Below are positions 5,466-19,700 of a DNA stretch of 42,976 nucleotides, one piece after another (position 1 is the stretch's first letter; each line of letters starts with the position of its first letter). The position numbers and the translations under genes are program-made. The stretch comes from a virus, in IMG/VR virus record IMGVR_UViG_3300023180_000124, positions 1 through 42,976 of that record. One strand, given 5' to 3'. The notes beneath the pieces were generated by a model, which had not been told where the DNA came from, did not search any database, and was given only the letters and a program-made list of their open reading frames with translations.

Positions 5466-5473
5466 TATTTATA
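5466..5473 (-). promoter_or_regulatory. T4-type late promoter TATAAATA
   Basis: The minus strand reads TATAAATA exactly, the T4 late-promoter -10 octamer recognised by the gp55 sigma factor. It lies 35 nt upstream of the subtilase-Ig gene ATG at 5431, leaving a leader of roughly 28 nt that holds an AGG ribosome-binding-like element close to the start. On the opposite strand it sits six bases before the start codon of the plus-strand gene at 5479, so the two genes diverge from one short region. Confidence 0.8.
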
Positions 5474-5947: not shown

Positions 5948-6213
5948 GCTTCACTCCGTTGGATTTTGGATTCTTCACCAAGAACTTTGGTGCGTACAAG
6001 GTCAAGGGCTTCACAAGCACCTTCAAGTTTGAGGCACTTGTTCCGAACTTCATTAAGTTCGGTAAGATCTACACGGGTCAGGAGGGCAGAATTCTTTTCG
6101 AGCTCATCTTCACGCTCTTTAACGTCCTTACGGCAAGCGACAAGTTGCTCAACAAAGTCATCCCACACATCCGTAAAATCTAGAAGACCTTCGGTTGTTG
6201 TTTCTTCAGACAT
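5944..6213 (-). CDS. Small coiled-coil protein (89 aa)
   Basis: An 89-residue acidic protein starting MSEETTTEGLLDFTDVWDDF. Residues about 20-80 are predicted helical with a coiled-coil character (EDELEKNSALLTRVDLTEL, then LEGACEALDLVRTKVLG). The pattern [L/G]GA..EAL/GL..[V/A].K echoes the following 65-residue protein, so the pair may be distant paralogues or partners. Its start overlaps the upstream oxygenase by 8 nt and its stop overlaps the next gene by 4 nt. The function is unknown. Confidence 0.75.
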   Translation of the reverse strand: MSEETTTEGLLDFTDVWDDFVEQLVACRKDVKEREDELEKNSALLTRVDLTELNEVRNKCLKLEGACEALDLVRTKVLGEESKIQRSEA

Positions 6214-6838
6214 AGTTTCTCACTTCATCTTTAATGTGTCCTTCTGTCAGCTCATATGGAGTAGCAAGATAGGGACGAGTATCATACTTTAGATCGCTGT
6301 AGTGACCATTAGCAAAGACATACTGCATGAAAGCATTCATCTGCTCTCTGCCTGTATACTTCTCACGCCAATGTGGAATGAGTGATCCCGAATATACTAC
6401 CACATCTCCTGGCTCAAGGTCAACCTTTTTCAGTTGTCCCTCCCATTCAAAGTAAAGGAATGACGGACACTCCTCGTCCCTTGCGATGTTGATGTTTACT
6501 GCTACTTCAGAACTTCTTCGGTCAACGTGCCGAACAAGCTCGCTGCCTTCAGTATATATACGACCATAAGAATAGGTCGGATGTAACTTCTCTCCTAAAA
6601 TTTTTTCGATCTTTGGTTGAAGGACCAAACTCAAAGATTCAAAACAAAGTGGAGAATACCAAGAAAAGGTATTAGGAACAGTCGGATCATTATAACCCTC
6701 ATCGCTCCCCATAGCCTTTAGAGCATCTCGCATAAGTCTAAACTCGGTAGCGAGAAGATCAATGACATTGGGAGATACCATCTGTCTAATCAGTTTAACA
6801 AATGGCTTTCTATGTAATTGTATAGTGGGTTCTGTCAT
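6206..6838 (-). CDS. 2-oxoglutarate/Fe(II)-dependent oxygenase (prolyl-4-hydroxylase-like)
   Basis: A 210-residue protein with the double-stranded beta-helix iron motif: His104-x-Asp106 in ELVRHVDRRSSEVAVNINI and a distal His156 in GDVVVYSGSLIPHWREKY. Arg164 is positioned to bind the 2-oxoglutarate carboxylate. The PGDVVVYSG turn before the distal histidine is typical of the P4H-type superfamily. Enzymes of this group couple decarboxylation of 2-oxoglutarate to hydroxylation of a protein side chain or small molecule; the substrate cannot be read from the sequence. It is last in a run of six oxygenase genes, starting inside the preceding one (29-nt overlap) and overlapping the following coiled-coil gene by 8 nt. 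Confidence 0.85.
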   Translation of the reverse strand: MTEPTIQLHRKPFVKLIRQMVSPNVIDLLATEFRLMRDALKAMGSDEGYNDPTVPNTFSWYSPLCFESLSLVLQPKIEKILGEKLHPTYSYGRIYTEGSELVRHVDRRSSEVAVNINIARDEECPSFLYFEWEGQLKKVDLEPGDVVVYSGSLIPHWREKYTGREQMNAFMQYVFANGHYSDLKYDTRPYLATPYELTEGHIKDEVRNYV

Positions 6839-7493
6839 AGAAATTAGAGGGTATCACGGTTGGCATACATGGGATGCTCATTGACAGTCTTCTGGAAGTT
6901 GGTGTGGCTTTGTGCCACGCCCTATCTGGAATATACAGCATATCTCCAGGTTTGAGAACCCCCTGCCAGTCAACTTCATATTTTGATTCATCTACGGGTT
7001 TATCATTTCTTGCTTCCCATAGAGAGGTAGCCCTATTCTTATAGACTACCCAATCTGTTTCACCTTCACATTGAATAATAAAATTAGCGAAGTGGTCATA
7101 ATGACACTTAAAAGAGTTAGCAGAATCTCTCGCTCCATAGACATGAATATCCGTATTCACATCAAAGTGCCTTTCGATTTCGGCACATAGAGATCTAACT
7201 CTAGCATTTGCTCTACTGTATGACAAGATAACAAAACTCAAACCACTCATGATATGGTTATGAATATGTTTCTTATCTTGGTCTGGAGTTCTAGCCCATG
7301 CTGGCTTATAGACTTCAATGTCTCTCTTGGAACCATCTGGCATGATGAGTTCCCAGTACATATCTGATCTATGTAAGGCATCCTCTACTGTCTCCCAAGA
7401 ACAATACTTCTCAGGAGACTTAAGGAAATCTGGAACATAAGCTGCTTGATCCTTTCCGAGTAGATTAGACGCTGCGAAGAAACTGTTCCACAT
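6810..7493 (-). CDS. JmjC/cupin-like 2OG/Fe(II) oxygenase
   Basis: A 227-residue protein. The iron facial triad is visible as His131-x-Asp133 (FKCHYDHFANFIIQ) and His194 (LKPGDMLYIPDRAWHKATP). The combination H-x-D-x-F, a Q-x-x-G-x-x-x-W motif and L-x-PGD-x-LYIP-x(4)-H is that of the JmjC/Cupin_4 group, which includes the bacterial ribosomal protein hydroxylases of the YcfD type. This argues for a protein substrate more strongly than for its neighbours, though phage members are not characterised as far as I know. The protein is shorter than cellular YcfD and lacks an obvious C-terminal dimerisation and winged-helix region. It overlaps both flanking genes by 29 nt. Confidence 0.8.
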   Translation of the reverse strand: MWNSFFAASNLLGKDQAAYVPDFLKSPEKYCSWETVEDALHRSDMYWELIMPDGSKRDIEVYKPAWARTPDQDKKHIHNHIMSGLSFVILSYSRANARVRSLCAEIERHFDVNTDIHVYGARDSANSFKCHYDHFANFIIQCEGETDWVVYKNRATSLWEARNDKPVDESKYEVDWQGVLKPGDMLYIPDRAWHKATPTSRRLSMSIPCMPTVIPSNFYDRTHYTIT

Positions 7494-8079
7494 TTCGACC
7501 TCTACTACACAGGTTGATTGTCAATGCCAATCGAGCATCATGCTCCTTGGGGCAAGAAGAAGCATGGTAATGCTTACCATCAAAGACAAACAGTTTGTTC
7601 CTCTCAGGATGACACTGGTACTTGATAGTGTATTTGTCAGATTCTGTAGTCTCATTGAACACGACAGTTGGACCATCAGAATCATTTACATAATACAAAC
7701 AAGTAAAGTGATCTCCTACTTGGGTTTCTGGATAATCGATATGTGGTTGATTGTGAAGCATATGCTCATCCCTAAAAGTAGGGAAGTTCAAACCACAGCG
7801 AATCCGAGCCAGTTGCCAATCTCTATAATCTAACTCCATCGCATCCAAGATGTAGTGGTAGATAAAACTAAACTTATCATACCACTCACTAGCGCGACCA
7901 TCGACATAAGGAGTGTGATGCATTCCAGGTTGAGACCTGTAATACGCTGGAACTTCATCCCTAGCATCGGGAGAAACTGTTACATCATCAAGCCAGTACC
8001 AAGGAAAAATATTCGAGGTAAGGAGATCATGAACCTCTAGTGCTAGAGAGTTTGGTAGGAAATTCTTAAATTCTTTCAT
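7465..8079 (-). CDS. 2OG/Fe(II)-dependent oxygenase
   Basis: A 204-residue protein with the P4H-type triad: His113-x-Asp115 (NQPHIDYPE), a distal histidine (His172, possibly His170) in FVFDGKHYHASSCP, and Arg183 in the following strand (ARLALTINL) for 2-oxoglutarate. The segment LYYVNDSDGPTVVFNE matches the strand that precedes the distal histidine in cyanophage oxygenases. It starts MKEFKNFLPNSLA, a typical short N-terminal helix in this group. The ATG overlaps the upstream stop by 4 nt (ATGA), and the 3' end overlaps the JmjC-like gene by 29 nt. Confidence 0.85.
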   Translation of the reverse strand: MKEFKNFLPNSLALEVHDLLTSNIFPWYWLDDVTVSPDARDEVPAYYRSQPGMHHTPYVDGRASEWYDKFSFIYHYILDAMELDYRDWQLARIRCGLNFPTFRDEHMLHNQPHIDYPETQVGDHFTCLYYVNDSDGPTVVFNETTESDKYTIKYQCHPERNKLFVFDGKHYHASSCPKEHDARLALTINLCSRGRNVEQFLRSV

Positions 8080-8639
8080 CGTAAATTAAATGACAAAGAT
8101 ATCCTGTCGGAAAAGGATAGGTTAGCTTTCACATGATGCATCACCCACGCTGGGAAGATAATCAAGCGATTTGGTATCGGTGTATACTCATACTCAGCAT
8201 TACTATATCTAGTCATGTTTGGAGCAATGGTTCCCAAAGCGAAGTCATTGGACCCTCTAGTAAAACATAGATTGCCAGCGTTCTCATCTGCTTTCACATA
8301 GAAGACACCAGACAGTTTACATTCTGGATGTACATGAACTTGATTGTATGAAAGTCTGGGATTGATATTGACCCATAGATTAACAATACTATCAGCAGGT
8401 TCTGGTATACCTAACTCATTGGAAGCCACCGCTGCCATCTTAGCAATTGCTTCGACTAAAGGTTTAAGTGGTGTTCTATCAAACTCTTTGTAGTCATTTG
8501 ATTGCCACCCACCAACGTTAGATACCAGTCTACCTTCATCCTTTTCTTTCTCAAGATAAGCCCAATACATGATGCTATCAAGATCAAGTTTTAGGTCAGT
8601 TCCCCATATGGGAGTGGGGAAGATTTCATCTAGGAACAT
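8076..8639 (-). CDS. 2OG-Fe(II) oxygenase, Oxy_5 / TIGR02466 type
   Basis: A 187-residue protein with the signature of the 2OG-FeII_Oxy_5 family: an N-terminal LFPTP-like start (EIFPTPIWGTDL), the HxH block at residues 102-104 followed by LSGVFYV, and a C-terminal IFPAWVMHHVKAN with His168/His169 and Arg179. This family is common in marine phages and bacteria, but its substrate is unknown. The length fits the family. It is a paralogue of the 201-residue gene two places upstream (9401-10006), with the order HxH, SGV[F/Y]Y and FP[A/S]WV conserved. It overlaps the gene before by 14 nt and the gene after by 4 nt. Confidence 0.85.
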   Translation of the reverse strand: MFLDEIFPTPIWGTDLKLDLDSIMYWAYLEKEKDEGRLVSNVGGWQSNDYKEFDRTPLKPLVEAIAKMAAVASNELGIPEPADSIVNLWVNINPRLSYNQVHVHPECKLSGVFYVKADENAGNLCFTRGSNDFALGTIAPNMTRYSNAEYEYTPIPNRLIIFPAWVMHHVKANLSFSDRISLSFNLR

Positions 8640-9408
8640 TTCGTAAAGGCGTATACTTAAATCCGAAGCAATGACTCCATCTCCATTCTACACTCTCTGG
8701 AATCCAAGGAGCGTGAATGGTGTTCGCATTGTACAGTGTCATAGTTCCGTACTCTGCTGCGGCGAAACCTGTCTTAATGAAACCCCAATGCCGTTGCTTG
8801 TCTGAATCGAAGTTGATCCATCCGTCGTCGTGATTGGTACCGTCTCCGTGCCAACTATGCCACTCTTTATACCTGTGGTGACTTGGATCGATTTGGAAAT
8901 CGTACCGTCCCTCATCAATCGTTCCTTTATACTTAAAGAAGTTGGTTCCTGTTTCATTTTCTTCGTGGTGAGAAAGCCAGAGGTTAGCAATGAATCCTTC
9001 ATCAGTGCCAAAGTCTCTATGTGGCATCTGCCAGCAACCTACAGGACGGCACCTATCTTTAACATAGATGTTCCCCCACTCAGAGAATCTCTCATCATGT
9101 AGCCCCACATCAACTGATTGCTTGAAGTGGTTGACCATTATGAAATGTCGGATCTGTTCTGCGATGGGGGAAAATATCCAATGAGATATCGACGTTTGCG
9201 CGAAAGGGTTTGGATCGCTCGCACTACCAGCATTGTTGTAGTCTTCTATCGGATAGCACTTGAGCACCTCAACGAATTCATCGAGGTCATAAAACATATC
9301 ACGAATACGCCAGTATTGCCCATGGAACGTAAAGTTCCATTCATCAAATGGTTTGATGAACTTGGCTTTATGTTTGGGAACAGGAAGAATCTTAAAGTCT
9401 TCAATCAT
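8626..9408 (-). CDS. Putative 2OG/Fe(II) oxygenase, divergent
   Basis: A 260-residue protein with a plausible iron site: His130-x-Asp132 (QMPHRDFGTDEGFIANLWL) and His232 in LYNANTIHAPWIP, with Arg243 about eleven residues later as a 2-oxoglutarate ligand candidate. It is the longest and most aromatic of the six oxygenases, with an extra His/Trp-rich section at about residues 176-208 (HHRYKEWHSWHGDGTNHDDG) between the two halves of the site. I do not recognise a named family beyond the superfamily fold. The insert could form a substrate lid or a second metal site, which is speculative. Overlaps are 8 nt upstream and 14 nt downstream. Confidence 0.7.
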   Translation of the reverse strand: MIEDFKILPVPKHKAKFIKPFDEWNFTFHGQYWRIRDMFYDLDEFVEVLKCYPIEDYNNAGSASDPNPFAQTSISHWIFSPIAEQIRHFIMVNHFKQSVDVGLHDERFSEWGNIYVKDRCRPVGCWQMPHRDFGTDEGFIANLWLSHHEENETGTNFFKYKGTIDEGRYDFQIDPSHHRYKEWHSWHGDGTNHDDGWINFDSDKQRHWGFIKTGFAAAEYGTMTLYNANTIHAPWIPESVEWRWSHCFGFKYTPLRNVPR

Positions 9409-10006
9409 AACCTAGGTAATTAAATGATATAGCGATTCTCTGAGAAGCATTGCTAGGTGGTACTCTATGCCTTACCCAAGATGGGAAAAGAATAAAATCG
9501 TACTGCTCTGCGGTCACTTCAGTAGATATAGTATCTATACCTGCCATGTGTTCGTACGGTGTCATCCTTAGAATGTAATCATTGGGATTACAAAATCGAA
9601 TGTTAGCAGAACCCTTAGGTTTCTTAAAATAATAGACTCCAGATACTTGGCATCTACCATTCCAACCATCTCTATGACTGTGCTCTGCTGTGCTGTCATT
9701 AGAGAAATGTTTGTTTGCCCAAGAGTGCTGACACTCAACGTAAGCCATCTTCCTGTAACCTAGGATATTGACCCAGTAGTCTCGGACAGCATAATCAATC
9801 CTTTCCCAGAACCATTTCAATTCGGGAATCTCATGAAGGTTCATACCATTAGGTGCGGTAGACAAACCAGTCTCACCAGCAAAGTCACCCAACTTAGAAT
9901 CCAAAAACATCCTAGTAAGGATATCATCAAAGTCGGCTTCTTGATATTCGGTGGGGCAAAGATGCCCCTTGAATACTGGAACCGAGAACAAAGGGTGGAT
10001 GGTCAT
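9401..10006 (-). CDS. 2OG-Fe(II) oxygenase, Oxy_5 / TIGR02466 type
   Basis: A 201-residue protein starting MTIHPLFSVPVFKGHL, with an iron-binding candidate cluster AEHSHRDG (His109, His111, Asp113) before CQVSGVYYF, and FILFPSWVRHRVPP with His170 and Arg180. This is the same architecture as the 187-residue gene at 8076-8639. I chose the ATG at 10006 rather than the TTG two codons upstream, because it gives a clean ATGA overlap with the upstream DUF6065-like gene. It is the first oxygenase after the halogenase/DUF6065-like group and overlaps the next gene by 8 nt. The substrate is unknown. Confidence 0.85.
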   Translation of the reverse strand: MTIHPLFSVPVFKGHLCPTEYQEADFDDILTRMFLDSKLGDFAGETGLSTAPNGMNLHEIPELKWFWERIDYAVRDYWVNILGYRKMAYVECQHSWANKHFSNDSTAEHSHRDGWNGRCQVSGVYYFKKPKGSANIRFCNPNDYILRMTPYEHMAGIDTISTEVTAEQYDFILFPSWVRHRVPPSNASQRIAISFNYLGYD

Positions 10007-10800
10007 TTCCAATACTTTCTCAAGATTTTATTAGTCTTCAGTTGACGTTTAGTGACGTTAACGTTTTCCTGAAATTCATTATAAGCAGTAAATTGAAACT
10101 CGTTCTCTAGAACAAAATCTTCTGGAGTAGCAACGTCAATGGATACATCCAAGTTTTCTAGGAGTTTGCGGGAAATAGGAACGTAGCAAGCAAGAGGAGT
10201 CCCTGCCTTAACTACTTCATCACCTTCCTTCACGTGCCACCAGAGTTGGACATTGACTTCATAAGCCGAGCGTGGATCAAGGATACCAGAAATAGCGCTG
10301 AATCTAGATTCATTTACAAACGGGACCTTAGTCTGAAGGAACACAATGTCATCATCTGCTTGTACTCTCCAACATGTATTGACTTTGATGACTTGATCAA
10401 TAACGTTATCTTTGGAAGAGTCCATCAACCACTTGGCGGTATCACTATCGTGGAGGACCACATAGTCAGAACCAGGAGGACTGAATGGAGTAGTAGTGAA
10501 AAGAATAGTATGCCCATCCCCATTGGTATGGACCTTAAAGTCAGCTGGAGCACGAACAACGTACCCAGTCCGCATCACCGAGTTAATTGCTGGACACTTA
10601 CCAATACTATGGGGTTGGTTGAATGGGATGGCATTCATGATGTTAGCCATAGGGCATTTGGTTTGCCGTTCCCTATAGTCTTCCTTCTCACTCTTAATCC
10701 AATCCCGATCCAGTTCTTCAGATCTAATCACAGGGTACAGAGTATGCGCCCCAGGAATCAGACTAAAAAATCTAGCACGCGGTTTTTTGGGTTTCTTCAT
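10003..10800 (-). CDS. DUF6065-like protein of unknown function
   Basis: A 265-residue protein. The N-terminal FFSLIPGAHTLYPVIRSEELDRDWI, followed by a CPMANIMNA segment, resembles DUF6065 proteins, which in bacteria tend to occur beside flavin-dependent halogenases; I make this call from memory of the pattern, without a search. The length also fits. The ATG at 10800 places the conserved part at the N-terminus and has a GGGG stretch just upstream. Other possible starts are ATGs at 10809 and 10833 and a TTG at 10854, all inside the halogenase gene. The overlap with the halogenase is about 29 nt and with the following oxygenase 4 nt. There is no catalytic motif I can identify. Confidence 0.65.
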   Translation of the reverse strand: MKKPKKPRARFFSLIPGAHTLYPVIRSEELDRDWIKSEKEDYRERQTKCPMANIMNAIPFNQPHSIGKCPAINSVMRTGYVVRAPADFKVHTNGDGHTILFTTTPFSPPGSDYVVLHDSDTAKWLMDSSKDNVIDQVIKVNTCWRVQADDDIVFLQTKVPFVNESRFSAISGILDPRSAYEVNVQLWWHVKEGDEVVKAGTPLACYVPISRKLLENLDVSIDVATPEDFVLENEFQFTAYNEFQENVNVTKRQLKTNKILRKYWK

Positions 10801-12334
10801 CAACCCCATAAATGTTTTGAACAAGGTAATCATAATGACTTGGGAGTTTAGCAACGTGCCTTTCTAGACTAATCTTATACTTTTCAAATTGTCTAGCCGT
10901 AGATTCCATTTCTTCTTGTGGATACTCTCTACGATTTCTAGTGTGGAGACTATCAGTAACAGTCAAAGGATGGTATCCAAGACCAGCAGCAATATAAACC
11001 AATCCTCCAAGGTCTTTAGGAGCATTTGCGATATTGAAGTTATGTATGAACTCTTGATAAAGTCTAGGTGACCTTACCACTTTATCATACATCTCCTCAT
11101 ATGTCAGTGGACTACGCTCAGTGTAATATCTCCAGTAAGGAGTGTCATCTCTAGGTGACAGATAATAATGCATGTACACGAACTCTTTCATTGCTTCGAG
11201 TTCGTATGAGACCGCATGGTTAAAACCATCAATATCCAACTGAGTGATCTTACCGTTCCTTCTTTCAAAGGTATCGATCAATCGAAGAATGTTCTCGTGT
11301 GTAGTAAAGAGACCTGTAGATTCTAGTGGCTCTAGGAAACCATAGGATAGTCCAATACCAATAACATTCTTACACCACCCATACTTGTGCTTACCGTGGC
11401 GGAACTTAATGTGTTTGACTTCTCCATCCCACTTGACATGATCACGGAACTCCTTCTCTGCCTGTTCTTGGGAACAGAACTTAGAGGAATAAACATAGCC
11501 AGTTCCGATACGATCCCAGGTAGGAATAGTCCATACCCATCCATTGCCTAGAGCATACCCATCTGTCGTGTTGCTCATCTGCTCCCTACGATTAGTGTAA
11601 GGAACCCTTGCTGCGACAGCAGAGTCATTAGGAAGATCATCTTCAAAGGAGATGAAGGGAACTCCCATATATCCCTCTAGGATTGCTGACTTGAATCCAG
11701 TACAGTCAATAAAATAATCGGCATGATACTGGTGCCCCTCGTCATCGAGCAGGTACGCAATCTCACCCTTATGATTAAGTGAGGCACCACTGATGTCACC
11801 ATAATAGTGAGTCACATTCTGGCAAAGGTTCTTACGCAACCATTGCCCAAACTGATCAGCATCAAAGTGGTAAGCCGCATTCCATTGTTTGCTGAAGTTT
11901 GGAATGTATTGATCCTGATCACACATCTTATTAGCAGAAGCCAGATATGAGATTGGATTATAAAACTCAGCAAACGATGTGTCTGGAAATTGTTCTGGGA
12001 AGAAGTTATGAAGGTGATACCAATCTAAAAATCCACCACGAGAGAAATCAAAGTCACCAAAAGGATACTGAAAGACATCTCCTTCATTCTTCCAGTTACT
12101 AAATTGGATTGATACTTTATAGGTCGCCTTACAGGAAGGCATCCAGTCTTTATCCTCAATACCTAGACAATCTAAGTACCGATTAAAATGCCCTAGGGTA
12201 GACTCACCTACACCTAGAGGCTTAGAGTATTGACTTTCAACCAGGGTGATATCCCACTGGGGAAACCTTTTAGATAAAGCAGCGGCAGTCATCCATCCAG
12301 AACTACCACCGCCAACAATACAAATCTTACGCAT
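10772..12334 (-). CDS. Flavin-dependent halogenase (tryptophan halogenase family), copy B
   Basis: A 520-residue protein of the PF04820 family. It has an N-terminal Rossmann FAD motif GGGSSG (residues 8-13), GVGEST (41-46), and the catalytic lysine at about Lys73 in CKATYKVSIQF, the position of PrnA Lys79. The diagnostic GWVWTIP motif is near residue 264, and GFLEPLEST near 333-341 carries the glutamate equivalent to PrnA Glu346. These enzymes use FADH2, O2 and halide to form hypohalous acid that reacts via the lysine. The length matches the family. I chose the ATG at 12334 (MRKICIVGGG); an upstream extension would encode residues overlapping the other halogenase and unlike the family. It overlaps copy A by 8 nt. 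Cyanophage homologues include VirX1, described as an iodinating enzyme. The substrate here is unknown. Confidence 0.93.
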   Translation of the reverse strand: MRKICIVGGGSSGWMTAAALSKRFPQWDITLVESQYSKPLGVGESTLGHFNRYLDCLGIEDKDWMPSCKATYKVSIQFSNWKNEGDVFQYPFGDFDFSRGGFLDWYHLHNFFPEQFPDTSFAEFYNPISYLASANKMCDQDQYIPNFSKQWNAAYHFDADQFGQWLRKNLCQNVTHYYGDISGASLNHKGEIAYLLDDEGHQYHADYFIDCTGFKSAILEGYMGVPFISFEDDLPNDSAVAARVPYTNRREQMSNTTDGYALGNGWVWTIPTWDRIGTGYVYSSKFCSQEQAEKEFRDHVKWDGEVKHIKFRHGKHKYGWCKNVIGIGLSYGFLEPLESTGLFTTHENILRLIDTFERRNGKITQLDIDGFNHAVSYELEAMKEFVYMHYYLSPRDDTPYWRYYTERSPLTYEEMYDKVVRSPRLYQEFIHNFNIANAPKDLGGLVYIAAGLGYHPLTVTDSLHTRNRREYPQEEMESTARQFEKYKISLERHVAKLPSHYDYLVQNIYGVDEETQKTAC

Positions 12335-13895
12335 GGATATAGTGAGGAACATCAACACCAGAGACACGTTCGTAATAGAACTCTTCTGGCGTGGGGAATT
12401 CATCGATCTCCCGTACCGTATCGGGGTGGAGCTCGTACCCAGATTCTAGCGTCCTCCACTGACTTAAGTCAAGGCTATGCCGCCTTTCCATATAATCAGC
12501 GTGCCATGAAGTCACTGGATGCTGGTTAAATCCAGCAGCAAGATATGCGTTACCTTCAAGGTTACTCATATTCCAGATGCTCATATCATGCATGTCCAGG
12601 AAGATCTGGTTCTGAGGATAGACTCGATACTCATCCTGAACGTGAGCACTAAGATAATCAATATCCTGAGTGATGTACTTCCAGTAGGGAGTATCTTCCC
12701 TGGTGGATAGCATGAAGTGATTGCCCACAAAGTAAGCAAAGTTCTGGAAGTTCTGACGGCAACGACGATTGAACTGATCCTTGATCATCGTGTTCACCTT
12801 GCCATTATGTGCTGACAAAGCATCACACAAATACATGGCGAAGTTGTGAGCACTCATGAGTCCATTGGATTCTAGTGGCTCAATGAAACCAGCAGAGAGT
12901 CCAATACCAACAACGTTCTTGTTCCAGATCTTCTTGGAGACGCCGTTCTTCCACTCAATCAAACGGAAGTCACTGATCTGACGATCCTCAAATCCCTCGC
13001 CTAGGTGCGCCTTGAACTCTTCCAGAGCATCCTCATCCGAGATGAACTTGCTGCTGAAGTTGTATCCAGTGCCGTAGCGAGTGCTGAGGGGAACATGCCA
13101 GACCCAGCCATTACCCAGTGCGGTACACAGAGTATGGTTGAGCATCTCTGTCTTCTTGTCCTTATACTTGAGGCGAACTGCCCAGGCACGATCATTGATC
13201 AGGAAGGGGAATTCATCCCACTCCGTACCCAGGGTCTCACCCAAAAGCAGAGACTTAAATCCAGTACAGTCAATGAACAGATCAGCGCTGTAGAAAGTAT
13301 CACCAACGTAGACTCGCTTGATACCAGTCTCGTCGTGATCAATCTCAGTGACAGTGCCCTGTACATGCTTGACGCCACGGGGAACACAGAACTCACGACG
13401 CAGATACTCAGCAAACTTCTGAGCATCCATATGATACCCAGCATTGTCTAGATAGCTGAAGTAATCAACGTCCCGAGGAACGACCTTGTTATCTTCGATA
13501 ATCTTCCAATAAGGAACCATCCACTCGCAGAAGGACTTATCTGGATTACCGTTAGTAGCACGGTAATGAAGGAACCAGTCCAGAAGTCCAACCTTTGCGT
13601 TGGGTGGCTCTTTACCAGGGAAGAATGGATAGTGGAAATCACCATACTCGCTGAAGTTCTTAAACTTCACGCTGTACTTATAAGTGGCTTCGCACTCATC
13701 CATCCAGACATCAGAGAGACACATCTCTCTAGTCCAGTCCCTAAAAAATTGGGTAGTCGATTCTCCGACACCAATCGTAGGAATGTCTGGTGACTCGATT
13801 AGAGTAATTTGCTTTTCAGGAAAAAATCTAATCAAAGAAGCGGCGGCAATCCATCCAGCGGTGCCGCCACCAACAATACAAATTTTATCAATCAT
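12327..13895 (-). CDS. Flavin-dependent halogenase (tryptophan halogenase family), copy A
   Basis: A 522-residue protein, collinear with copy B but clearly diverged. FAD-binding GGGTAG lies at residues 9-14, GVGEST at 42-47, and the catalytic lysine is about Lys73 in CEATYKYSVKF. The signature reads GWVWHVP near residue 259 (usual GWxWxIP, so Ile to Val), and the EPLES block ends in Asn instead of Thr (EPLESN). These changes keep the catalytic residues but alter the motif next to the halide site, which may mean a different substrate or halide preference (inference). It is first in the enzyme block, 17 nt after the 171-residue gene. No flavin reductase is encoded in the window, so FADH2 would have to come from the host or from elsewhere in the phage genome. 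Confidence 0.92.
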   Translation of the reverse strand: MIDKICIVGGGTAGWIAAASLIRFFPEKQITLIESPDIPTIGVGESTTQFFRDWTREMCLSDVWMDECEATYKYSVKFKNFSEYGDFHYPFFPGKEPPNAKVGLLDWFLHYRATNGNPDKSFCEWMVPYWKIIEDNKVVPRDVDYFSYLDNAGYHMDAQKFAEYLRREFCVPRGVKHVQGTVTEIDHDETGIKRVYVGDTFYSADLFIDCTGFKSLLLGETLGTEWDEFPFLINDRAWAVRLKYKDKKTEMLNHTLCTALGNGWVWHVPLSTRYGTGYNFSSKFISDEDALEEFKAHLGEGFEDRQISDFRLIEWKNGVSKKIWNKNVVGIGLSAGFIEPLESNGLMSAHNFAMYLCDALSAHNGKVNTMIKDQFNRRCRQNFQNFAYFVGNHFMLSTREDTPYWKYITQDIDYLSAHVQDEYRVYPQNQIFLDMHDMSIWNMSNLEGNAYLAAGFNQHPVTSWHADYMERRHSLDLSQWRTLESGYELHPDTVREIDEFPTPEEFYYERVSGVDVPHYIHA

Positions 13896-13912: not shown

Positions 13913-14428
13913 TCAGGAGATTCTAACAGGTTTACCAGTTACGGGATCAGGACCCCAGCCCTCTTCATAAACTGTCCCATTCTTAAAGGTCGTAACTTTC
14001 TGACGCTTCTCTGCGGGAAGAGATTCCCAAGCAGGAGCATCCTCGGTACCCATTTCAAACTCTCTCTTATCAGCGTAGAAAGCAGGATCGGCATCAGCAA
14101 TAGACTGGGTAGGCTCTGCTGCTTTGATCGAGGCAATATGATCTTTCCAGGTAGTCGTTCCGTTGACCTGATCCCAGTACATCATATCCAGCTGCTCTTC
14201 GATCGAGCCATATGCGACCTTACGCTTCATATCCTGGTTACGTTCCAGGCGAAGATCTCCAGAGAAAAACTCTCCGTTATAAAGGACCCAAGTATTATCC
14301 ACGTTGTCATCATCACAAATGACCCAGCGGATATGAGAATCGGGACCTTGATATACTTCAAATTCATCACCAACATCTCTGATGTCAGTAATAAATCCTC
14401 TGTAATCTACAAGACAACTTTTAGCCAT
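13913..14428 (-). CDS. Small conserved phage protein, possible tail/fibre assembly factor
   Basis: A 171-residue acidic protein starting MAKSCLVDYRGFITDIRDVG. The C-terminal half has AYGSIEEQLDMMYWDQVNG followed by HIASIKAAEP. This resembles the YPSIxxQLDxLYxD...IxxVKAxYP motif found in many small phage proteins near tail-fibre genes, some annotated as tail assembly or XkdW-like. The very C-terminus (TVYEEGWGPDPVTGKPVRIS) is unlike that motif. Its position directly after three adhesin genes fits an assembly role, but this is inference. A CTAAATAG element 23 nt upstream could be a variant late promoter for this gene and for the enzyme block behind it. Confidence 0.75.
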   Translation of the reverse strand: MAKSCLVDYRGFITDIRDVGDEFEVYQGPDSHIRWVICDDDNVDNTWVLYNGEFFSGDLRLERNQDMKRKVAYGSIEEQLDMMYWDQVNGTTTWKDHIASIKAAEPTQSIADADPAFYADKREFEMGTEDAPAWESLPAEKRQKVTTFKNGTVYEEGWGPDPVTGKPVRIS

Positions 14429-14460: not shown

Positions 14461-15216
14461 TTAAACGAACTCCATAACAATAACGCAGCCCTTCATGCCA
14501 TTGGCACCTTGATAAGAACGCTGATAACCAGCTGTTCCACCAGCACCATAAGCAGCACGTAGTTGGTTAGATCGAGTACCTTGTACCCAGTTACCATGAG
14601 CGCTCATGGTACCGCAACCAAAGAAAGAACTGCCACCATGACCCATGTAGTTCATGTGACCAATTCCACCACCACCATAGATGTTTAGATTGCCACCAGA
14701 GCCCAAACCACCAAGACCACCGCAATGTTGGAAAGACTGGTTAGCACCAAGACCGCCCGACGCAGAAAGGTAGTTTCCGAACGAGGATGTCTGACCGCCT
14801 CCACCATTACCAGAATAATAAGTGCCGCTCTGAGAGCCATTGCCCACAGTAACAGTAACAGACGAGATTCCACGGACATCGATTACCTCTTCGGAATAGC
14901 CGCCTGCGCCGCCCGATTCGGAATGCCCTGATCCACCACCGCCACCACCTACGACACGAACCAAGACACGGTTGATGCCTGCTGGTCTAGTCCAAGTAGA
15001 ACTATTATAAAAAGTCTGAATACTAGAGGGACCGATATTTTTATACGACGCAGAAGTTCCGTCACTGACAAGAAACTTACCAGCGTTACCTTCTGGTGGG
15101 GGTGGAATAGAGTTCTTGTTCAGAGTAGTTCCACCGAGGGACAGGTTGTATCCATCGGGGATAAGAATAGTAGTTCCCGACGCAGCGTCGAGTTCATTGA
15201 TACGAATATTAGACAT
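14461..15216 (-). CDS. Glycine-rich adhesin-like protein, copy 3
   Basis: A 251-residue protein. The N-terminal 60 residues (MSNIRINELDAASGTTILIP, then LGGTTLNKNS) form an attachment-like module shared by all three copies. A strand WTRPAGINRVLVRVVGGGGG leads into a long Gly-rich section with GGAGGY, SSFGNYLSASGG, QSFQHCGG, a variable loop region and a hydrophobic end GCVIVMEFV. Gly-rich stretches separated by variable loops recall the polyglycine-II sandwich adhesins at T2, T6 and S16 fibre tips (gp38), where the loops bind the receptor. The comparison is by pattern only. It follows copy 2 by 3 nt. It is the most diverged of the three in its central loops (HMNYMGHGGSSFFGCG). Confidence 0.8.
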   Translation of the reverse strand: MSNIRINELDAASGTTILIPDGYNLSLGGTTLNKNSIPPPPEGNAGKFLVSDGTSASYKNIGPSSIQTFYNSSTWTRPAGINRVLVRVVGGGGGGSGHSESGGAGGYSEEVIDVRGISSVTVTVGNGSQSGTYYSGNGGGGQTSSFGNYLSASGGLGANQSFQHCGGLGGLGSGGNLNIYGGGGIGHMNYMGHGGSSFFGCGTMSAHGNWVQGTRSNQLRAAYGAGGTAGYQRSYQGANGMKGCVIVMEFV

Positions 15217-15219
15217 TGT

Positions 15220-15981
15220 TTATGCGAAGTTCCAAACTACTACAATACCTGCCATACCTCTAGCACCACGAGTAGAAGTGTGATAGCCAGGGGAACCACC
15301 ACTGCCAGGAGCAGCTCTGTATTGGTGATTGTAAGCATAGTGACCACCACGAGGGTGACCAGAAGCACCTGCTCCGCCCCAGAAAGATCCGCCACCAGGA
15401 TATCCAGCCCAATACTCGTGACCAGATCCACCACCACCATAGATGTTAAGTTGACCACCTGAGCCTACGCCAGGAAGTCCTCCACAGTGCTGGTAGTTAC
15501 GGTTGGCACCGTTACCACCAGAGGCAGACAGATAGTTGCCGAAAGAAGTAGTACCACCATTAGCAGCACCGCCAGAGTAGAAAGTACCACCCCAAGATCC
15601 AGGTTGCCCAACGGTAATAGAAACAGAAGAAATGCCAGTAACGTCGATAATTTCTTCGGCGTATCCACCAGCACCACCTGCTTCACCCACACCCGAACCA
15701 GCACCGCCAGCACCAGAAAGTCTAACAAGAATTCTCTTTACACCAGAAGGTCTACTCCAAGTTCCGTTGGATGTCCATACCTGCATCGATACGGCACCAT
15801 GTTCAGTCCATGATCTAGTAGACCCGTTACTGGTCAAGATTTTACCATTTTGACCAGCTGGAGAAGGCATGACACTAGAAGCATCCAGTGTCTTAGTGCC
15901 CAGTCGAAGACTATAACCACTTTGAATGGTTACGTTACTGCCCGACTGGGCTCTCAATTCATTGACCTTAAGAATAGACAT
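15220..15981 (-). CDS. Glycine-rich adhesin-like protein, copy 2
   Basis: A 253-residue paralogue of its neighbours. It starts MSILKVNELRAQSGSNVTIQ, then WSRPSGVKRILVRLSGAGG, GGAGGYAEEIIDVTGISS, TSFGNYLSASGG, YQHCGGLPG and the C-terminal GIVVVWNFA. The variable central loop is Trp- and His-rich (GHEYWAGYPGGGSFWGG). The junctions with copies 1 and 3 are both 3 nt long, and the 13 bases TAGACATTGTTTA recur at each (plus-strand reading), a sign of tandem duplication. The likely role is a fibre-tip receptor-binding protein, inferred from the glycine pattern and from its place right after a giant fibre gene. Confidence 0.8.
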   Translation of the reverse strand: MSILKVNELRAQSGSNVTIQSGYSLRLGTKTLDASSVMPSPAGQNGKILTSNGSTRSWTEHGAVSMQVWTSNGTWSRPSGVKRILVRLSGAGGAGSGVGEAGGAGGYAEEIIDVTGISSVSITVGQPGSWGGTFYSGGAANGGTTSFGNYLSASGGNGANRNYQHCGGLPGVGSGGQLNIYGGGGSGHEYWAGYPGGGSFWGGAGASGHPRGGHYAYNHQYRAAPGSGGSPGYHTSTRGARGMAGIVVVWNFA

Positions 15982-15984
15982 TGT

Positions 15985-16737
15985 TTACTTGAATTCCCAG
16001 ATTACTACCATACCGTGTTTACCATCTGGTCCGAGGTAGGAACGGAACCAGCCATTAGCGCCACCCGATCCAGGAGCACACCTGGCTTGGTGGTTTCTCG
16101 AATAGTCTCCACCACGGGGATGTCCTCTGGCAGCGCAACCACCGAAGAAGGAATAACCACCTGCTCCGTTGTATCTACCATGAGCAGATCCACCACCTCC
16201 GTACATATTGACATCACCACCAGCACCAATGCCACCCAGTCCACCAGCATGTTGGAATGACTGGTTAGCACCATCGCCACCAGTAGCAGAACAAAATGAA
16301 CCAAAAGAAGTAGAACCACCCTGGCTAGATCTGCCAGAGTAATAAGTCCCCGCACCACCCTGTCCAACGACAACGGATACAGTATTTACTCCAGACACAT
16401 CACAAACTCTTTCGGCGTATCCACCAGCACCACCAGATTCAGCATGACCTGAACCACCGCCACCGCCGCCTACGAGTCTAACTAGGACCGTATTTACGCC
16501 AGCGCCTTTAGTGTAGGTACCAGAACTCTGGAAAACTTGGATACTTTGAGCACCGTAAGTGTCATATACCACGGACGATCCATCACTACCAACTGCTCTG
16601 TTTGCCTGCCCAGAAGCACTGGGCAGAACAGAGTTCTCATCAATCTTGGCTCCACCAAGAGAGAGGGCAGTGGTAGCAGGGATTGTAATGGTACTTCCGC
16701 TATAAGAGCGGATGTTATTTACGTATAACCTACTCAT
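15985..16737 (-). CDS. Glycine-rich adhesin-like protein, copy 1
   Basis: A 250-residue protein, first of the three paralogues and directly behind the 3,633-residue giant gene (8-nt gap). It has the shared attachment module (MSRLYVNNIRSYSGSTITIP), KGAGVNTVLVRLVGGGGGG, GGAGGYAERV, STSFGSFCSATGG, QSFQHAGGLGG and the end GMVVIWEFK. Its central loops contain GRYNGAGGYSFFGGCAARGHP. A perfect late promoter, TATAAATA at 16796-16803, lies inside the end of the giant gene, 59 nt from this ATG, so the adhesins can be made in excess of the fibre. The arrangement resembles the gp37-gp38 order of T-even phages (analogy, not homology shown). Confidence 0.8.
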   Translation of the reverse strand: MSRLYVNNIRSYSGSTITIPATTALSLGGAKIDENSVLPSASGQANRAVGSDGSSVVYDTYGAQSIQVFQSSGTYTKGAGVNTVLVRLVGGGGGGSGHAESGGAGGYAERVCDVSGVNTVSVVVGQGGAGTYYSGRSSQGGSTSFGSFCSATGGDGANQSFQHAGGLGGIGAGGDVNMYGGGGSAHGRYNGAGGYSFFGGCAARGHPRGGDYSRNHQARCAPGSGGANGWFRSYLGPDGKHGMVVIWEFK

Positions 16738-16745
16738 AGATTTAC

Positions 16746-19700
16746 TTAGAGAATTACCCAGGCACCGCCTGAGGCGACTTGAATGGTCACGCCACTATTT
16801 ATAGTGATAGGACCAAAGGATCCACAGGAGTCACCATTGTTGATGGTGATGCTCTCCCCAATGTTGTTACGGTTTCTCTTAATGATACCATAGGAGTCAA
16901 GATACTGCTTGTCTCCACTTGCTCTAAGAACCGTAGACTTCTGACCACTGGACAGACCTTCAGAAGCGTTAATGTTAAGACCATTATCGCCAGTAATCTG
17001 AACTCTGTAGCTAGACTGAATACTGTTGCTGCCTGGTTCGTGGAAGTGGCATCTACCGCCTTGATCCCAAGAAGCAAAGGTATTGTCAGAATCATTTCTG
17101 AAGAAGAAGTCATTGCCAGTTCTGAAGTATGTATGAGAGTTGTTGCTGAAGTAGAATCTTGGTTGACCACCAGCATCGTTGATCCAGGTATTGACTTGGC
17201 TAGACAGGTAAGGCAGGTTGTTTGCCTGATAACCATCCAGCAGGTCAGCATTCAGATTAGTACATACTGTAGTAGAGTCAGTGCTCACTGGAGCAGTACC
17301 AGTAGCAACGCGGGAACGAATCTGACCGAAGAAGTGTACAGTAGAATCGTTGTAGCGGTACTTCATGACACGAGTGTCAGTACCGTTATCTCTTCTGTAG
17401 AAGGTGATGTCGTCACCCTGTTCAGAACCGAACGAAGCAGGTGAGTTATCACCGTTGTAGGCAATACCACCACCATAGGCGCTGTCCTGACCTACGAACA
17501 GGTAACCAGTACCTTGGCTGTTACCGTATGCTTCAAAACCTGCCTGGTTGCTATCGCCTGCGAGTGCGCGGACAAAGGTGTTAGCAGATCTACTTGTAGT
17601 ACCGAAGACGGCATTACCAGTAGAAGTCAGACTTTGAGCTGGGTCACTGTCACCAATACCAATTCTATCATTACGGAAGTAGATTGTGCCGTAAGACAGA
17701 TGAGTTCCATTGAATCCAAGGCTCTTACCATCATTACCAAACTGGACGTAACCAGAGTTGGTGTCCTGTCTACCTCTGATGGACAGGTTGTTAGTGCCTG
17801 CCTTACCAAGGTTGATACCGTTGCCATCAGCAAGTTGAAGGATCGATTCACCAGTGTTGGCGAAGATACCCTGGTCAGCGGTGATGTCCGAAACAAAGAT
17901 GTTGCTGCTAGCGTCTCTACGAACCAGAGCATTGGCAGTGTTAGTAGCGCTCTGGATGTAACCATCAACATAGTGTGCGTCCAACTGAGAGGTAGCACCG
18001 TCATTACCAGAGTGCCATACAGTGTTGCCGTTCAGAGTAAAGGAACTGGTCTTGAGTTCGAGAACACCTTGACCATCCTGTGCGGTACCGCCACTGACTT
18101 CAAATCTTACATCATAGTCAGCAGCCAGAGCGCCAGATCTAAAATCAATAGTTGGGGTGGCAACAACGTTAGTTCTACCGATCTCAAGCAAAGCACCGTT
18201 AGCGGTGTTGCTCATAGCAAACACTTGACTTGCGCCAGTGGTCAGGAGATTGGAAGAAGTTACAGTCCACTTGGTACCAGGGTTGGGACCAAAGACCTTG
18301 ATATCTTTATTGGTAAAGGCACCAACAAAGTTAATTGTACCTCTGACCAACGTGTAGACAGATCCAGTAGTTGAATCATTTACTTCAGTGATACCATTAG
18401 CAAGAACGGTAATTGTACCGATGTTGTTGACAGCGGCTTCATCGGAGTAGATAGTATAGACTCCGTTGTTGGACAAGTTGCCAATAGGAGCAGTACCAGT
18501 AGAAGCGAAGTAGTCAGGGATATAGAGTTCATAAGTTTCGCTGGAAGCAACCAGATAGAGGTTGTCAGCAAAATACTTATTGCGACCCAGGAGTTCGGGC
18601 AGAGCAGTGTCACCAATGACACCACTTGTTCTCTGGTCATTAATGTTGTAACCAGACTGGAACCAGAGACCTTGCTTACCGTCAAGGTAATCAGCGTCTG
18701 GACCAGGGAGAGTGCCACGACGAGGATCGTTAGGATCAGGAGCACCATCATTCTCAGAATGCCAGACCTTCGCCCACTGACCGTAAACGGTACCAGTGTC
18801 AGAGTTACCTCTGAGGTACAGGTTGTCAGTAGCGGAGAAAGCCAACTGAGCAACAGAGTTACCAGTTGCGGAGCGACGGAAGGTCATGATACCCGCTCTG
18901 GTACCACCCGCATCGGTAGGAATACCAGTTACGGAGTTGGATCTCAGAGCAAGCTGAGTACCTACGTTAGCAGCACTAACCAGGGAAGCGTTAGCAGAAG
19001 ATGGAGCAGTGGTCTCACAGAACAGAGTGTTCGAGTAGTCTGCTGTACCAGAGATCGAGATGTTGTAGGTGGTGTTTGCCAGACGCTGAGGATCAAGGAT
19101 ACCCTCAGTGAGGTTAGTGGCATTCTGATAGAAGGAACCTTCGTTACCATCCAGTTTATCAGCGTTCAGTTTAGAACCAGGACCCTGGTCAATGGTAACT
19201 TCACCATTAGTGGTAATAACGAAACCGCCGAGGTCTTGGTTAGCCAGTGCTTGCTCAGCAGCGGGCTTACGGAACTTGGCGATACCATAGTTACCAAAGA
19301 CCGAACCACCAGCCTGAAGAGTTGTTGGGGTAAGGTTGTTTGCCTTGAGAAGGTCAATCGAAGTGTTACCGTAGTAACGAGAAAGTGTACCCTTAACAGC
19401 AGTCAAACTACCTGCTACAGCTGGCTGACCCAGTTCGCTAGGAACAGTCAGAGTAAAGTCTGAGTTATATCCAGTACCAGGAGTAACAACAGAAACACTG
19501 GAGATAGCACCAAATGTTGTGCTAGAAGTCAGAGTAGATACACTTAAGGTTACACCCTGCTGAACAGTACCACCGAAGAGTGGACCATCAAATTCAAGAG
19601 TGTCACCACCACTGTAACCAGAACCACCATCCAGGATGATGTCAACCGAAATGTCACCGACGGAATCAGTGAGGAATCTAATCTGAACACCAAGACCAGC

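Follow-up and report, generated by a model that had tools for sequence, protein, structure and literature searches.

Two flavin-dependent halogenases, a protein of predicted dUTPase-like fold and six oxygenase-like proteins, which are encoded side by side in the window (i.e. the whole stretch of viral DNA analysed here, 42,976 bases, an entire IMG/VR record), form part of what gene families and their order identify as a conserved module of cyanomyoviruses (Kyanoviridae). In this module the halogenase is near-obligately linked to the genes of a subfamily of glycine-rich tail adhesins and of a small protein, s. The arrangement is so constant in many marine cyanobacterial viruses that the adhesin or s is the probable substrate of the enzymes. 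Thus, with moderate confidence, the block is regarded as the enzymatic part of a late-expressed module for tail-adhesin maturation, acting on one or the other of these two proteins. The window has a near-identical relative of 200 kb, which carries a photosystem II reaction-centre gene; the host is, therefore, a cyanobacterium.

Gene order and enzyme families in the window

The genes are transcribed from the minus strand in the order G1-G3 (adhesins, 16737-14461), s (14428-13913), hal1 and hal2 (halogenases, 13895-10772), D (10800-10003), the oxygenase-like genes ox6 to ox1 (10012-6206) and the small gene e (6213-5944; table 1). With the likely starts of hal2 (12334) and D (10800), successive overlaps from hal1 to ox1 measure 8, 29, 10, 8, 14, 4, 29 and 29 nt, and overlapping of neighbours by 4-29 nt continues through e. 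The open reading frames agree, therefore, with the preliminary description of this DNA, which had reported nine same-strand genes at 6206-13895 without gaps and with overlaps of 4-29 nt. Its placement of the nine between glycine-rich adhesins and a virion protease also stands, in that Gly_rich_2 adhesins and a protein with a protease profile are found there, but s and e, which directly adjoin the nine genes, had not been listed. Gene e lies 3' of the oxygenases in the window, whereas other lineages have it ahead of them, after D. In the large protein encoded beyond it, Ig-like segments are repeated and a subtilisin-like motif, GTSFSAPVVAG, is present.

Table 1. Features of the adhesin-enzyme region of the window, in order of transcription.
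Feature	Position	Strand	Evidence
T4-type late promoter motif ATAAATA	16796..16802	-	ahead of G1 and of the adhesin-enzyme unit
G1, glycine-rich tail adhesin	15985..16737	-	Pfam Gly_rich_2 6e-6
G2, glycine-rich tail adhesin	15220..15981	-	AlphaFold pLDDT 89; Pam3 match
G3, glycine-rich tail adhesin	14461..15216	-	Gly_rich_2 5e-8; phrog_863 tail
s, putative adhesin chaperone, 171 aa, Trp-containing C-terminal tail	13913..14428	-	position, tail
hal1, predicted flavin-dependent halogenase, 522 aa	12327..13895	-	Pfam Trp_halogenase 1.1e-91
hal2, predicted flavin-dependent halogenase, VirX1 ortholog	10772..12334	-	Pfam Trp_halogenase 1e-105
D, predicted dUTPase fold (beta-clip), remotely DUF6065-like, 265 aa	10003..10800	-	phrog_7084 1e-52
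ox6, putative 2OG/Fe(II) oxygenase, 2OG-FeII_Oxy_5	9401..10012	-	Pfam 2e-14, HxH..H..R
ox5, oxygenase-like, phrog_1644	8626..9408	-	motif only: H130xD132..H232..R243
ox4, putative 2OG/Fe(II) oxygenase, 2OG-FeII_Oxy_5/TIGR02466	8076..8639	-	Pfam 4e-20
ox3, 2OG/Fe(II) oxygenase-like, phrog_274	7465..8079	-	phrog_274 2e-33
ox2, JmjC_2 protein, 227 aa	6810..7493	-	Pfam 2.9e-19
ox1, oxygenase-like, phrog_2954	6206..6838	-	motif only: H104xD106..H156..R158
e, small gene, 89 aa	5944..6213	-	phrog_20247
Large protein, 1714 aa	287-5431	-	protease profile phrog_3677

The two flavin halogenases recognised earlier are borne out by their Pfam scores and are predicted, from sequence, to be Trp-type enzymes of the VirX1 group. 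The best PDB match of hal1 is VirX1 (E 5e-94), and hal2, which matches VirX1 (PDB 6QGM) with E 5.6e-138, is its ortholog. Both retain GGGxxGW (for FAD), WVW(H/T)(V/I)P (the WxWxIP motif, which reads WVWHVP in hal1), the Lys in ATYK and the Glu in EPLES, all being invariant or nearly so across the family alignment. VirX1, from cyanophage Syn10, is an iodinating halogenase, characterised with free aromatic compounds according to a review (PMC8407142), which takes many free heteroaromatics in vitro and whose large, open active site accepts bulky substrates. Its sequence matches the second halogenase of Syn9 in the alignment; at the VirX1 position of both Syn9 and Syn10, hal1, s and the adhesins lie ahead of the gene and D follows directly after it. 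The order adhesins, s, hal1, hal2/VirX1 and dUTPase-fold gene is, thus, shared by Syn10 and the window, the difference being that VirX1 has been characterised on free aromatics while the function of hal2 is predicted from sequence. No discussion of the VirX1 operon or of the native substrate was found in the literature searched, which did not include the original VirX1 paper.

Of the six 2OG/Fe(II) oxygenases originally proposed, four are recovered by profile, and the remaining two, ox1 and ox5, are called oxygenases because of a strictly conserved H-x-D...H...R pattern only. Neither has a significant Pfam family (the best for ox5 is DUF6445, E 0.054), and their membership of the other oxygenase families was discarded, hhalign giving no profile-level support. 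Among the four, ox4 exceeds the NCBIfam cut-off of TIGR02466, and ox3 shows the pattern H113xD115..H172..R183 and is related to the ox4 family with an hhalign value of 96%. The JmjC-like member, also correctly identified at the outset, is ox2, which scores 69 bits against a Pfam cut-off of 22 for JmjC_2 and the nearest solved relatives of which are the protein histidyl hydroxylases NO66 and MINA (PDB NO66, E 1.8e-7). It shares with NO66/MINA53 the JmjC_2 domain and the HxD..H facial triad, but is much smaller and is uncorrelated with the NHQ/NHN motif of the adhesins. NO66 prefers NHXH; an action of the JmjC protein on adhesin NHQ/NHN was rejected, as the motif is independent of JmjC presence (49/73 versus 15/29 loci), and none of the adhesin residues tested tracked the presence of an enzyme. 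HxD..H with the Arg is kept in ox1, ox2, ox3 and ox5, while ox4 and ox6 show a family-invariant HxH..H..R, H-x-H in place of H-x-D possibly denoting an unusual metal site. The names 'ferrochelatase', 'DNA endonuclease V' and 'minor coat protein', derived from PHROG, are attached to HxD..H..R oxygenase-like proteins of the window (6206-8079 and 8626-9408) and to their homologs in five further loci (L004-L008); judging by the motif, these labels, which are spread over cyanophage records, look wrong.

Protein D had been labelled DUF6065-like, a relation that holds only remotely: the window protein has no match to DUF6065 over the Pfam gathering cut-off, and one of 50 relatives matches it with E 0.0039. 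The AlphaFold model (pLDDT 90) has, instead, a predicted beta-clip fold of the dUTPase superfamily, all top Foldseek matches being dUTPases (E 1.7e-4 to 1e-3, with target TM values of at most 0.65). A motif-III-like stretch is weakly discernible by eye, and D is not classed as a dUTPase enzyme. Its gene lies directly 3' of a halogenase gene in 14/14 phage records.

Linkage of halogenases to adhesins and protein s

The adhesins are predicted to adopt the glycine-rich distal tail-tip fold of the Pam3 gp24/gp38 type, the best PDB match of the G2 model being the tail fiber of cyanophage Pam3 (7ypx; E 7.8e-9, probability 1.00, TM 0.57). In Pam3 the glycine-rich tip is a proposed receptor binder, capped by a dedicated chaperone encoded adjacent to it (PMC9608196). 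As in Pam3 gp24/gp25 (PDB 7YPX), such an adhesin fold is found in the window beside a small helper gene; the identity is, however, about 26%, and a sequence search with s matched neither a solved chaperone nor any other PDB entry. Position and the Pam3 analogy suggest that s is a putative chaperone of the adhesin.

The glycine-rich fold is widespread across phages and, therefore, it is to a sequence subfamily of adhesins, rather than to the fold, that the halogenase is linked. The least biased test of this linkage is offered by searches started from the adhesin rather than from the enzymes. A tblastn search of 50,697 phages with G3 as the query gave 20 records, every one of them in the list of halogenase-encoding records, and s and a halogenase lie downstream in 11/11 of the distinct phages matched. 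A pattern scan of viral contigs, again anchored on the adhesin, yielded 61 distinct loci in which sufficient DNA follows the adhesin; here s is adjacent in 60/61, a halogenase is found within 2.5 kb in 59/61 (with one locus having the enzymes on the opposite strand) and an oxygenase within 8 kb in 52/61. The environmental contigs repeat, with variations, the order adhesin(s)-s-halogenase(s)-D-(e)-oxygenases, s separating the adhesins from the halogenase in nearly all loci; the oxygenase set differs among phages, and adhesin, s and halogenase form the constant core. Given this variability, the single pathway suggested earlier for all of the enzymes is only a possibility. Genome comparison, thus, finds genes that co-occur far beyond chance rather than being scattered. 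Furthermore, co-transcription alone fails to explain the association, because the linkage persists where halogenase, D and oxygenases occupy the opposite strand and converge on adhesins and s (L243), where the halogenase precedes s (G-G-G-H-s, L238) and where D is missing and adhesins and s still adjoin the halogenase (L130, L133, L134, L144, L146, L149 and L152). Halogenases away from such adhesins occur in S-H35, S-MbCM6 and P-SSM2.

Diverged adhesin homologs (about 35-41% identity, at a relaxed threshold) are encoded just upstream of an s homolog in Syn33, S-RIM12, metaG-MbCM1 and P-RSM1, which are of the same virus family (Kyanoviridae) and are absent from the 64 halogenase records (60 listed, the others being, by count, Campylobacter phages). 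In these four phages s ends at 116-119 aa. Over distinct loci, a Trp-containing C-terminal tail is present in 119/121 halogenase-linked s proteins (118 by script, plus L105, in which the tail contains Trp but could not be delimited) versus 0/6 halogenase-less ones, a contrast that is a strong lead, not proof, because the control set of six loci is small and drawn from few lineages. The two halogenase-linked exceptions are L243 and L216, and the tail of the Syn9 protein reads STREVPCWKRYPGWSGY. A strict P(A/C)W signature of s was given up, as it fits only 95/121 loci, in favour of the broader 'Trp in the added tail'. A conserved His at the loop tip as a halogenase-specific mark of the adhesin was likewise abandoned: the first two controls fitted, but the Syn33-type adhesins are also His-rich.

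The T4 late-promoter core, ATAAATA, is found at four sites in the window, each on the coding strand and some 20-60 bp upstream of a minus-strand gene; after the copy ahead of G1, the next on the minus strand is at 5466, after the final gene of the block, where it provides the large protease-profile protein with a late motif of its own. Over 121 distinct related loci, the motif lies within 110 bp of the first adhesin in 58/110 and within 110 bp of the first halogenase in 21/121, versus about 2.5 expected.

Proposed role of the enzymes and alternatives

In the proposed scheme, a T4-type late promoter would drive G1-G3, s, the halogenases, D and the oxygenases together; s would, on the model of Pam3 gp24/gp25, hold the glycine-rich loops at the distal end of the adhesin, and the enzymes would act on the adhesin-s complex during tail assembly. 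The halogenases, probably transferring bromine or iodine like VirX1, would target an aromatic residue in the loops of the adhesin or in the Trp tail of s, while the 2OG oxygenases would hydroxylate other side chains, and the modification may alter receptor binding by the tail tip or its stability, and adsorption. More tentatively, and as a possibility that we hold with some reserve, the system may be a dedicated post-translational tailoring line, in which the chaperone-bound adhesin is halogenated and hydroxylated, possibly via the Trp tail of s, to reach an adhesion chemistry beyond the twenty amino acids.

The preliminary description had left open whether the block decorates virion proteins or processes a host metabolite, and the comparative evidence gives partial support to the former: decoration is favoured because of the near-obligate linkage to adhesin and s, the late promoters and the survival of the linkage on inversion. 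The open active site of VirX1, the Pam3 match of G2, the Trp tail of s and the kinship of ox2 with protein histidyl hydroxylases also speak for it, and the halogenases that lie away from such adhesins speak against it. The classical substrate of Trp halogenases is free Trp, as would suit a pathway in which a halogenated, oxidised small molecule (e.g. an antibiotic-like compound, a defence product, or a capsule or secondary metabolite) is made or modified in the infected cell, the place in the tail region being incidental. Protection from antibiotics has indeed been proposed for cyanophage halogenases (PMC2984593, PMC9964418), a halogenase and 2OG-oxygenase cluster of jumbo cyanophages has been read as serving capsule decoration or secondary metabolism (PMC7824862), and the range of free heteroaromatics accepted by VirX1 in vitro (PMC8407142) points the same way. 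Such a pathway is, nevertheless, rather unlikely in view of the link to a single adhesin subfamily and s, which inversion does not break, of a block devoid of ligase, carrier-protein or transporter genes, and of the late-promoter motifs.

Tail regions of phages recombine frequently, and adhesin, s and enzymes might simply travel together as an exchangeable cassette without acting on each other, a view with which the variable number of adhesins, the variable enzyme content and the occurrence of same-family oxygenases elsewhere in the 200 kb relative are consistent. A pure cassette would, however, be expected to shed enzymes often, whereas the halogenase is kept in 59 of the 61 testable loci; the association also outlasts inversion and reordering, and halogenase presence tracks the added Trp tail of s, so that mere co-travelling is judged unlikely. 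That the 2OG oxygenases tune the 2-oxoglutarate/NtcA signalling of the host, as proposed for cyanophage 2OG oxygenases generally (PMC3037559), or repair phage DNA, a metabolic or DNA role having been proposed also for Syn9 genes adjoining uvsX/uvsY (PMC2984593), is highly improbable here: the halogenases, the adhesin linkage and the late-promoter motifs would be unexplained, and the oxygenases of the window do not adjoin repair genes.

In the literature searched, guesses for cyanophage halogenases concern antibiotic or metabolite roles. The near-obligate linkage described here makes the loops of the adhesin and the tail of s candidate native substrates of VirX1. Should the modification prove real, halogenation and hydroxylation of the tail tip would add a new layer to phage-host recognition in abundant marine viruses and would help to explain why several oxygenases are encoded by so many cyanophages.

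Occurrence, precedents and variants

The window order recurs in Syn9, Syn10, S-RIM44, Sf-CH3, Sf-FR1, S-CREM1 and P-TIM40, and, in a version lacking D, in S-WAM1, S-SZBM1 and P-RSM6. The statement that single halogenases or oxygenases are known from cyanophages had, therefore, understated the precedent, as such blocks are already present in Syn9, Syn10, S-RIM44, P-TIM40 and S-CREM1. The blocks of Syn9, S-RIM44, P-TIM40, S-CREM1, Sf-CH3, S-WAM1, S-SZBM1 and P-RSM6 contain the gene families of the window in the same order, but their deposited annotation is piecemeal (tryptophan halogenase, DNA endonuclease V, ferrochelatase, minor coat protein, gp43), and in the cyanophage literature halogenase and oxygenases are handled as separate auxiliary genes. 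Components, and even whole blocks, have thus been deposited since Syn9, while the literature searched seems to be silent on the linkage to adhesins, on the tail of s and on the setting of VirX1; no description of the adhesin-s-halogenase unit was found there, the original VirX1, Syn9 genome and Syn9 transcriptome papers being outside the search. The main text on the S-SZBM1 virion proteome (PMC9146016) names neither the adhesins nor the enzymes among the detected proteins. The cluster of jumbo cyanophages such as S-SSM6a (PMC7824862) resembles the window block in that a halogenase is joined by 2OG and cupin-like enzymes, but it is described with sugar and carbamoyltransferase genes and has been read as capsule or secondary metabolism, whereas the window block is tied to adhesins.

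An apparent bacterial occurrence, in Nonlabens xiamenensis (NZ_RMVE01000006.1, L169), was set aside: block layout and coordinates are identical to those of P-TIM40, and with sizes of 188,235 and 188,632 bp the entry is most likely a cyanophage contamination. Three to four consecutive halogenase-family genes lie beside adhesins and s in some viral contigs (L242:9765-16017, L221 and L224). Finally, in Sf-CH11 (L173, 5770-11932), L165 and L099, halogenase/oxygenase clusters are found beside tail proteins outside the glycine-rich adhesin family, which suggests that the enzyme set can pair with other types of adhesin.
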